A stretch of 64,000 bases of DNA from Lentibacillus persicus (GTDB taxonomy: Bacteria > Bacillota > Bacilli > Bacillales > Amphibacillaceae), in contig NZ_FOMR01000005.1 of NCBI RefSeq assembly GCF_900112705.1, forward strand, positions 199,355 through 263,354. Reading direction: 5' to 3'. Under the pieces are notes generated by a model. The model searched no databases, was not told the DNA's origin, and was given only the letters and a program-made list of their open reading frames with translations. Shown here piece by piece: positions 12,193 to 41,866 of the stretch. Each line of letters starts with the position of its first letter. Position 1 is the stretch's first letter. The position numbers were made by a program, and so were the translations under genes.

Positions 12193-12232
12193 AGCTGTTC
12201 TTTTAATGATCAATTAATAGAACAGCTTTTTT
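12193..12232 (+). terminator. Terminator of the aco operon
   Basis: The stem AGCTGTTCT/AGAACAGCT, with an AT-rich loop and a run of six T, begins 13 bases after the acoC stop. Confidence 0.85.
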
Positions 12233-12250
12233 GTTCCCGAACAGCGAAAC

Positions 12251-12290
12251 ATGGGCCGGAACAGGAAGACATGTGCCGGAAACCGGCCTG
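12251..12290. repeat. Two units of the 20-bp GCCGG repeat family
   Basis: Units start at 12251 (ATGGGCCGGA) and 12271 (ATGTGCCGGA), exactly 20 bases apart, between the two terminators behind the aco operon. They belong to the family found in long arrays at 31985-32205 and 41656-41789. Confidence 0.7.
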
Positions 12291-17557: not shown

Positions 17558-18702
17558 AAATAACGGATTTTAAATTATATCAAGTTCCGCCAAGGTGGCT
17601 GTTTTTAAAAATTGAAACGGATGAAGGCATCAGCGGATGGGGAGAGCCAATTGTCGAGGGAAGAGCCTATACCGTAGAGGCTTGTGTTACTGAACTGATG
17701 GACTATATGATCGGGGAAGATCCCCGTCACATTGAAGATCATTTCCAGGTTTTATACCGCGGTGGTTTTTATCGTGGCGGACCAATCCTCATGAGCGCTA
17801 TTTCCGGAATTGAACAAGCGCTCTGGGATATTAAAGGCAAGTATTATAATATGCCGGTTTATGAAATGCTCGGCGGGGCCGCCCGTCATGACATTCAGGT
17901 TTATTCGTGGATTGGCGGTGATCGGCCACAGGATGTCGGCGCTGCTGCAAAGGAAAAAGCGGACGCCGGATTTACTGCCATCAAAATGAATGGAACTGAA
18001 GAAATGAATTATATTGATAGTTATTCGAAGGTGGATGCTGCGATCAGCCGCGTGGCAGCCATTCGTGAAGCGGTCGGAGATGATTTTGGAATCGGGATTG
18101 ATTTTCATGGGCGCGTGCATAAAGCAATGGCAAAAATTCTTGTAAAAGAGCTCGAACCTTACCGGCCGATGTTTATCGAAGAACCAGTGCTGGCCGAAAA
18201 CCTGGAAGCGTTCCAGGCTGTTGCCAACCATACCACGATTCCAATTGCCGCAGGGGAACGCAATTATACACGCTGGGGATTTAAGCAAATGTTGACTGAT
18301 GGTGTGGTGGACATTATTCAGCCTGATTTATCTCACGCCGGCGGTATTTTGGAGTCGAAAAAGATTGCAACGATGGCTGAAACATTTGATGTGGCGGTAG
18401 CACCTCATGCGCCATTGGGTCCAATCAATCTGGCCGCCTCACTGCAACTGGATGCCTGCACACCAAACTGTATTATTCAGGAGCAAAGTCTGGGAATCCA
18501 TTACAATCAAGGCAGTGATTTGTTGGATTATCTCGAAAACCCGGATCTATTCAAATATGCCAATGGGTCGGTGAAAATTCCTGAAGGCGTGGGGCTTGGA
18601 GTCGAAATTGATGAAGCCCGGGTGATCGAAGCGGCGAAAACGGGTCATCGATGGAAAAATCCTGTTTGGCGTAACAAAGACGGCACATTTGCCGAATGGT
18701 AG
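17554..18702 (+). CDS. dgoD: D-galactonate dehydratase (enolase superfamily)
   Basis: Dehydrates D-galactonate to 2-keto-3-deoxygalactonate. This 382-residue mandelate-racemase-family protein matches E. coli DgoD as recalled, throughout its length, including [15 protein letters not shown] at the start and AEW at the end. Metal ligands Asp183, Glu209 and Glu235 and catalytic His185 and His285 fall at the expected numbers. The presence of gluconokinase and GntZ in the same operon leaves a gluconate-type acid as an alternative substrate. It overlaps kdgA by 4 bases and is followed by the permease. Confidence 0.92.
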
Positions 18703-24626: not shown

Positions 24627-24960
24627 GTCACATCCACCACCCTCAATGTATTATCCATTCGATCAACGCGTTTTTGCACATTCATTAGCTTATCATATCG
24701 AAAAAGAAAGTAAATACATGCCGATTTCTTATGAGAACGGGTGCAACTATCTGAATATTCACGTTAATCTTTCACGAAATTTCGACGAATTTTGCTCACT
24801 GAGCTTCACTGACGTTCACTGAGCTTCACTGAAGCCACTCAACTTCTGAAATTGGATTTGCCAGTCTTCAGAGGGTTTATGTAGACTACATTTAGTTCAT
24901 GCGCATGGATTTTTCAAGTCGTTTTAATCGTTTGTTAAGAACGGAATAGGAGGATTTCAT
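24627..24960. other. Divergent promoter region between LysR and amidohydrolase genes
   Basis: This 334-base intergenic region carries four head-to-tail 10-base units beginning TCACTGA at 24796, 24806, 24816 and 24826. The third and first units are identical. The ten-base spacing places every unit on the same face of the helix. No clear -35/-10 pair was recognised. AGGAGG lies just before the amidohydrolase ATG. No coding frame is supported. Confidence 0.5.
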
Positions 24961-30616: not shown

Positions 30617-30656
30617 ATATGCGGAAAAGCAGAAATATGTGCGGGTCCATGAATTT
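30617..30656. repeat. Two degenerate units of the 20-bp repeat family
   Basis: Units start at 30617 (ATATGCGGAA) and 30637 (ATGTGCGGGT), spaced 20 bases. They are less conserved than the arrays downstream. Confidence 0.4.
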
Positions 30657-31706: not shown

Positions 31707-31820
31707 ATGTGCCGGTTCTGACAAATACGGGCGGGTGTAAACAAGATATGTGCCGGAGCGGGGAAACATGTGCCGGAACGCCGAAACATGGGCGAGTATG
31801 AGCATGATATGTGCTACCGG
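31707..31820. repeat. 20-bp tandem repeat array, about six units
   Basis: Units start at 31707, 31727, 31748, 31768, 31788 and 31809, i.e. spacing 20, 21, 20, 20, 21. The best units open ATGTGCCGGA and end GAAAC; one reads ATGGGCGAGT. Confidence 0.75.
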
Positions 31821-31984: not shown

Positions 31985-32205
31985 ATGTACCGGAGCGGGC
32001 AAGCATGTTCCGGTACAAGCAATTTATGTGCCGGAGAGACGAAACACCGGCGGGAAATCAGAAATATGTTCCGGTCCCGGGAAATATGTTCCGGTTTCAG
32101 CCAATATGTGCCGGAAATTGAGAATATGTGCCGGAATACCGAAATATGTTCCGGTATGGAAAAATATGTTCTGGTTTCGCCAAACATGTGCCGGAACAGA
32201 GAAAT
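31985..32205. repeat. 20-bp tandem repeat array, eleven units
   Basis: Eleven units follow one another with a spacing of 20 bases (one of 21). The first ten bases are conserved as ATGTKCCGGW, with T or G at the fifth position. The middle seven bases vary freely and the end is usually AAAT or AAAC. The CCGG core and A/T-rich edges recur every two helical turns. Not coding: the period is not a multiple of three. Confidence 0.85.
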
Positions 32206-33475: not shown

Positions 33476-33490
33476 TCGATGTCGGGCGTC

Positions 33491-33742
33491 GAAACGTGAG
33501 ACGCCACTTTCGAATCGTGCGGAGCCATCGTCAAAACGTGCGGCGCTCCGCCTGAACCGTGCGAGCCCACCGTCGAAACGTGCGGGGCCCCTTCCGAATC
33601 GTGCGGCACCCTGCCCAAACCGTGCGAGACTGCCGTTAAATCGAGCGAGACCACTTCCGAATCGTGCGAGATCAGGCCCAAATCGTGCGAGACTGCCGTC
33701 AAACCGTGCGACACCCCTCCTGAACCGTGCGGCAAGACCGCC
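33491..33742. repeat. 21-bp tandem repeat array, twelve units
   Basis: Twelve contiguous 21-base units, each opening RAAHCGTGCG (H = A, C or T) and ending in a variable C-rich stretch. Because 21 is a multiple of three, long open frames run through it in several phases (a repeated NRA heptapeptide on the plus strand, SHDS-like on the minus). No ribosome site or unique sequence supports a gene. Confidence 0.85.
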
Positions 33743-41655: not shown

Positions 41656-41789
41656 ATGGGCGGGAGCGGCGAGAAATGTTCCGGAGCGAGGAAATATGTT
41701 CCGGAACGGCCGGAACTCGGAAATATGTTCCGGAACAGCGAAACATGGGCAGGAAATTTGAAATATGTTCCGGAGCAGCGAAATATGTT
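41656..41789. repeat. 20-bp tandem repeat array, six units
   Basis: Units start at 41656, 41676, 41696, 41725, 41745 and 41765, then a partial ATGTT at 41785. The third unit is 29 bases because a CGGCCGGAA-like stretch is duplicated inside it. The core is ATGTTCCGGA. It begins 9 bases after the HemD-like stop. Confidence 0.8.
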
Positions 41790-41866
41790 ATGACGACAAC
41801 GAGCGGTTTTATTACAACCGTGAGAATTTAAAAAATGGCTGGTTTTTGGCAAAACGGTAAGAAGGT

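Follow-up and report, generated by a model that had tools for sequence, protein, structure and literature searches.

The stretch of DNA analysed here, referred to as the window, comprises 64,000 nucleotides of the genome of the salt-loving Lentibacillus persicus (3.31 Mb, 23 contigs) and contains rows of short head-to-tail repeats, several of which are built on the core ATGTKCCGGW and were assigned to a common word family (family A). The following rows were located:

31985..32205, + strand: main array of family A, 11 slots of 20-21 bp with the core ATGTKCCGGW
31707..31816, + strand: further family A array, which shares the gap of the main one, three exact cores (the last at 31777) plus degenerate units
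41656..41796, + strand: family A array 3' of a HemD-family gene, four exact cores (41656-41774) plus GGCGGG-type units
12231..12290, + strand: family A remnant with two cores, of which one is exact and the other has one mismatch (12251/12271)
30617..30650, + strand: weak family A pair (30617/30637), one core with one mismatch
33487..33735, + strand: array with a 21-bp period and the core AAnCGTGCG, belonging to a different word family

Exact family A cores occur 18 times in the window as compared to 0.61 expected, a number that none of 100 shuffles attained. The first-pass annotation had placed the same unit at four sites besides the main array; those at 31707 and 41656 proved to be true arrays, while the site at 12251 is a remnant and that at 30617 a weak pair. 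What had been overlooked is that the main array represents one of several word families with a common period, another of which is found at 33487-33735. The array at 41656..41796 possesses one irregular step of 29 bp, and the remnant at 12231..12290 has a 2-oxoacid dehydrogenase gene on one side, a convergent RpiR-type gene on the other and terminator-like hairpins on both, the left one having been judged by eye. Eight genes next to window arrays, scanned with Pfam, have metabolic, regulatory and cell-wall assignments in mutually unrelated families (OpuAC, zf_Tbcl/RQC, LytR_cpsA_psr, PAPS_reduct, HEM4, GntR/UTRA, 2-oxoacid_dh and HTH_6/SIS). A short 10/20-bp repeat of TTCACTGA-type units was also seen in an intergenic gap of the window (24796-24846), and the sole Rfam match of the window, Bacillaceae-1 RNA (RF01690, 3409-3534, above the gathering score), lies outside the arrays.

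The slots of the main array start at 31985, 32005, 32026, 32046, 32066, 32086, 32106, 32126, 32146, 32166 and 32186, the step being 20 bp throughout except for one of 21. Eight of the 11 slots carry the exact core, two carry it with one mismatch and the slot at 32046 deviates at four positions. The eleven-unit 20-bp array that had been annotated stands, with ten slots at no more than one mismatch. Across the 11 slots mean pairwise identity amounts to 0.79 for the ten core columns, to 0.61 for the four bases 5' of the core and to 0.27, approximately the level of unrelated DNA, for the last six columns, which agrees with the earlier description of a unit conserved in one half and variable in the other. 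The main array and its recurrence are real and unusual, and any function is inferred. Its combination of worn spacers and intact cores, which is the opposite of what is seen in homogeneous arrays, was taken to favour a platform bound by protein at the DNA level, as plain duplication would erode core and spacer alike; the rival idea of selfish or neutral minisatellites explains random spacers beside intact cores less well.

The claim that all CCGG cores face one side of the DNA does not hold: with a helical repeat of 10.5 bp, units spaced by exactly 20 bp drift by about 34 degrees each, so that about ten of them circle the helix once, and only the 21-bp families keep helical phase. This drift was counted against the binding platform, and it also speaks against intrinsic DNA bending, according to which A/T-rich and G+C-rich parts would alternate at about two turns and produce a curved segment without any specific protein reading the words. 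Several consensus units do, by eye, consist of an A/T-rich and a G+C-rich part, and the periods lie near two and five helical turns; bending would however not require identical specific words at many loci, and it was considered highly improbable. The CCGG itself is likewise no universal core, as it is present in 142 of the 185 family A units (the commonest replacement being GGCGGG), and other families of the same genome lack it.

Mapping of the cores over the whole genome bore out the recurrence that had been claimed, with 190 exact family A cores (99+91) as compared to 7 for the reversed pattern and 63 tandem core pairs as compared to none. Spacings between exact cores are nearly always multiples of 20-21, with exceptions of 29 and 37 bp. 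Runs of N break family A arrays of this genome at three places (L148 15678-16039, L149 5935-6575 and L157 at about 18360-18430), hence some arrays may be longer than the assembly displays. Each of the eleven congeners searched holds 16-91 exact cores, so that a single core means little; the tandem pair, unlike the single core, is specific to arrays. Tandem pairs were found in only two of these eleven congeners and, the host included, in four of 60 genomes searched. Searching genomic contigs with the pair pattern yielded at least 107 loci, many of them single pairs, and among the matches listed the named Bacillaceae with true arrays were Lentibacillus sp. CBA3610, Bacillus litorisediminis and Virgibacillus ndiopensis. 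For the LytR orthologues of congeners, the three best loci, whose upstream sides were covered in part, held no comparable array. The strict AAACGTGCGG pair had no match in the host genome, the exact CGCGCGAAAT pair occurs in one of 199 genomes of the order, a pattern too strict for measuring spread, and the GTGAACTTY pair occurs in four of the 199 (19 places), with six matches of its reversed pattern in five other genomes, so that single matches such as that in G176 need an array check (made for L268 and L269). At pattern-selected loci 21-bp arrays are present in G133 and G176, both of other families, and array words recur at many loci, also in other genera and families. Outside this set, 21-bp arrays of ATGTTCCGG- or ATGTGCCGG-like words were observed in metagenome-assembled genomes named Odoribacteraceae, Tannerella and Planctomycetaceae (L053, L104, L124, L131, L036, L067, L097, L107 and L123), some of them under an open frame and all with a period biased by the selection of the loci by pattern.

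A lag-identity scan independent of any motif revealed several families. Its unbiased sample of 1.86 Mb consisted of 800 kb of CBA3610, 400 kb of the congener G011 and, for the remainder, single-contig pieces (at most the first 20 kb) representing 20 further genera of the family and 20 further families of the order, one contig for each. Two of the same-family pieces were entirely N; the survey excluded segments with more than 20 N, one unit-level analysis excluded N-containing units, and gene calls are longest open frames, not annotation. The survey identified 47 noncoding tandem arrays with base periods of 20 (6 arrays), 21 (16), 41 (1), 51-53 (11), 11-12 (3, one with its best lag at 52), 47 (1), 55 (1), 61-66 (6) and 79 (2), whereby none of the 47 had a period of 13-19 or 22-40. 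Visual inspection suggested CRISPR for three of the 61-66-bp arrays (those of 65-66 bp in L217) and tRNA genes for the two 79-bp pairs. First-order shuffles of 200 kb gave no match at a similar scan setting, and as noncoding periods TRF returned 20, 21, 40 and 51-53 and, with one array each, 55, 63, 66 and 120. Repeats within long frames of the same sample have periods of 9, 12, 15, 18, 27, 30, 33, 42, 54 and 78, and five of these repeats have a period of 20 or 21. This concentration of noncoding base periods at 20-21 (22 of 47, plus the one of 41) was counted for the binding platform, and a narrow period common to unrelated words speaks against the minisatellite reading. The class is dense in CBA3610 (18 per 800 kb, the 41-bp array counted), where arrays per 20 kb are overdispersed (variance/mean 1.8), and rarer in G011 (three in 400 kb) and in other genera of the family (two in 363 kb); the 299 kb sampled from further families within the order yielded none. 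One 20-kb segment (L279, G000:C11:156500-176400) harbours five 21-bp arrays of several word families.

Whether the conserved columns form a contiguous block of ten was assessed for 24 arrays (22 motif-free and two of the window) by permuting the columns of a sub-run that was itself chosen for high identity. The outcome was p<0.05 in 16 of the 24 (combined Fisher p 9e-15), and in arrays passing the test the conserved block is contiguous and about 10 bp long, which was counted for the binding platform. The window array at 33487 reached p=0.017 and the main array 0.093; the latter value, together with the patchiness of the class, was counted against the binding platform. Clustering of 78 arrays, unbiased and targeted, placed 64 in ten clusters with two or more members and left 14 as singletons, whereby the common period is there by construction, as only periods of 20 and 21 were fitted to arrays chosen for such periods, and some arrays with the appearance of family A members (G011, L200) were split off. 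The clusters are:

Word family A: 23 arrays
GTGAACTT types: 10 and 6 arrays
CTACAGCG family: 5 arrays
TTCGTTGATA family: 5 arrays, all from G133
CGCGCGAA family: 4 arrays
CTGCAG-like family: 4 arrays
TTTATGTGCCG family: 3 arrays, all from B. litorisediminis
CTCGCACG family: 2 arrays, one of which is the window array at 33487
Tenth cluster: one more pair, in G133

Two viral contigs carry GTGAACTT repeats with a step of 22 bp (or 11 bp) instead of 21 (L340 4876-5061 and L341 3587-3761). A second noncoding class, the period of which (51-53 bp) approximates five helical turns, was observed in several genera and families of the order:

L205: 14938-15146
L207: 1-298 and 18509-18898
L208: 15257-15848
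L215: 11519-11727 and 13291-13544
L253: 15454-15758
L307: 14375-15654

Position was examined for 20 core-holding stretches of the host genome and the window, giving 26 array rows. These lie between genes by longest-open-frame calls, in keeping with the annotated location in gaps, and tandem, convergent and divergent gaps are all represented. In 22 of the 26 rows an open frame covers the array, with a length of 72-169 aa in 20 cases and of 286 aa and 316 aa in the other two; these frames were taken for by-products of the repeat, and a coding repeat was rejected for family A since its 20-bp period is not a multiple of 3. A terminator-like hairpin stands between gene and array for 25 of 61 array-facing genes as compared to 44 of 361 control genes, a contrast that is inflated because the control includes operon-internal genes; the scanner considered loops of 3-9 bases and missed one hairpin beside 12231. 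Proximity to the replication terminus, which the first-pass annotation had raised, did not appear as clustering in Lentibacillus sp. CBA3610, where two of 18 arrays fall into the eight of 40 sampled segments nearest the skew switch (about 1.05 Mb) and 3.6 would be expected. A strand bias, raised there as well, does exist by local GC skew, with 20 leading and 6 lagging rows for family A, 1 and 8 for B and 4 and 6 for C, in a tally that includes coding or 52-bp repeat rows (L164 13418, L238, L240 and L195) and one A row with a skew of about zero (L200); orientation is biased, not strict.

A further reading assumes an RNA-level element, in which neighbouring CCGG-type cores would pair in the transcript and influence termination, decay or a small RNA. 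In comparison with shuffles, folding of the main array gave z values of -4.63 (sense) and -2.81 (antisense), and of 18 family A arrays 12 had a z below -2 on the sense strand and five on the opposite one. When the cores were kept and the spacers alone shuffled, 11 of 12 arrays were still negative and five below -2, the main array however reaching only -1.71; part of the folding signal is built in, since CCGG is palindromic. Pairing between neighbouring units was found in slight excess (58 of 120 as compared to 53.2 after reordering, sd 2.6). Against the RNA reading, the other families are inconsistent (of 11 arrays, one is below -2 on the named strand and four are on the opposite one), many arrays are located past a terminator, and the window arrays show no Rfam match at or above the gathering score, so that a known RNA family was rejected. 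RNA pairing may matter in family A, it does not account for the class, and an RNA-level function was judged quite unlikely.

Four family A arrays of the host genome reside in a dispersed mosaic repeat (L312-L326), the ends of which resemble CATAAACTGCGA in inverted arrangement and the interior modules of which are interchangeable. Its flanks matched 15 times in this genome, four of the 15 with a family A array, and at the other eleven no array was found in the 680 bases examined. The four array-bearing copies comprise 7, 8, 11 and 13 loosely matched units. Flank comparison over 23 pairs revealed both flanks to be common to three loci and parts of them to a few more. Within 300 bp no CATAAACTGCGA end was found for any of the four window arrays tested; some arrays outside the window have one such end, and none was flagged with both. 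Some arrays (C13:13390 and C9:419249) repeat near-perfectly over the whole unit and must be young.

In bacteria noncoding tandem repeats are usually explained by slippage, and for human minisatellites a copy-promoting core was once proposed. Along these lines the units would multiply by slippage and unequal recombination, whereby the core would be copying-prone and serve no host function, an account that is plausible and was given appreciable, minority weight. Its accompanying step, the spread of arrays into new gaps by ectopic recombination or as cargo of a mobile element with survival wherever they are harmless, was deemed possible to the same degree. This account is supported by the unit number varying among the four carrier copies (7, 8, 11, 13), by several arrays being homogeneous across the entire unit, by the occurrence of arrays in every gap type beside unrelated genes and by their patchy presence between congeners, and it is better than binding at explaining young homogeneous arrays, carrier repeats and patchiness. 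Homogeneous arrays and varying unit number were accordingly counted against the binding platform; conversely, the same words being kept in other genera and families argues against selfish spread. A selfish array with a self-copying core was therefore regarded as nearly as good a reading as the binding platform, and as a tentative second choice.

The reading that was tentatively favoured over selfish minisatellites, although with somewhat less than even confidence, considers the arrays as candidate DNA-level multivalent binding platforms. It builds on the observed period, the conserved half, the dispersal, the several word families per genome and the frequent post-terminator position. All families have a one-turn word, a repeat of about two turns and an intergenic location, and a row of binding sites explains word, spacer and period: the word covers about 10 bp, approximately one helical turn, and together with about ten subsequent bases under weak constraint makes up a unit that repeats every 20-21 bp. 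Successive units would be occupied by a sequence-specific DNA-binding protein, perhaps a separate paralogue for each word family, which would form a multivalent patch like those on iteron or operator arrays, and it would be this binding which retains the word. The recurrence of words in other genera and families and the hairpins preceding arrays were counted for the binding platform, the role of which may be chromosome architecture or insulation between transcription units and not single-gene control. New units would be born by tandem duplication, and transport of arrays by the dispersed MITE-like repeat was documented for four copies. A bolder version, in which halophilic Bacillaceae and relatives would use a chromosome-organising code of about ten 10-bp words, each with its own paralogue and serving as anchoring or insulating platforms, is doubtful, and so, to a like extent, is its tenet that such a code would involve tens of intergenic arrays per genome with repeat lengths of only 20-21 and 51-53 bp. 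Half-kept units of unrelated words at one narrow period would point to unrecognised chromosome-docking proteins; the arrays are a ready bait for finding DNA-binding proteins, with core-scrambled arrays as the matched control, and if selfish, they would constitute a clean system for studying the retention of the core in a repeat that loses its spacer.

Among known classes, CRISPR arrays combine near-identical repeats of about 23-47 bp with unique spacers of similar length. A CRISPR array was rejected, as the first-pass annotation had done, the unit of 20-21 bp in total (about 10 bp conserved and about 10 bp variable) being too short; no cas family was detected among the eight window-array neighbours scanned with Pfam. 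In the open PMC library, the titles and abstract openings listed in response to searches contained no description of such arrays, which is weak evidence of novelty. Iteron and operator arrays, such as plasmid Rep iterons and phage origin iterons, are direct repeats of about 17-22 bp with a conserved core, and the arrays described here resemble them in repeat length, in combining a conserved core with a freer remainder and in a spacing of about two turns, but differ in occupying many chromosomal loci and in comprising several word families in one genome. Iterons of an origin lie beside their initiator gene and have a specific protein bound to them; no replication-initiator (Rep) gene was found among the eight neighbours, and this, together with the many loci, is why the arrays were not classed as iterons. 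A plasmid or phage origin was unsupported as well, with no plasmid match and, by the array criteria applied here, an array in none of the 13 viral contigs that carry the family A pair pattern. With REP/BIME-type repeats, which are short, dispersed and extragenic and possess a palindromic core, the arrays share these features, the palindromic core in family A; they differ from them in forming long head-to-tail rows of 20-21-bp units and in that the other families lack a consistent hairpin. The likeness to MITE-like repeats, which are characterised by terminal inverted repeats, consists in the four family A arrays that sit inside a dispersed repeat with inverted CATAAACTGCGA-like ends, whereas 11 of the 15 carrier flank copies are without array and four window arrays are without such an end. 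Finally, bacterial minisatellites or VNTR loci are tandem, intergenic and variable in unit number, and the arrays are alike in their head-to-tail units and in a unit number that differs between carrier copies within one genome. They are unlike them in that unrelated words share a period restricted to 20-21 (and 51-53) bp and in that old arrays keep only half of the unit. As repeats, the arrays are minisatellites with an unevenly wearing unit.
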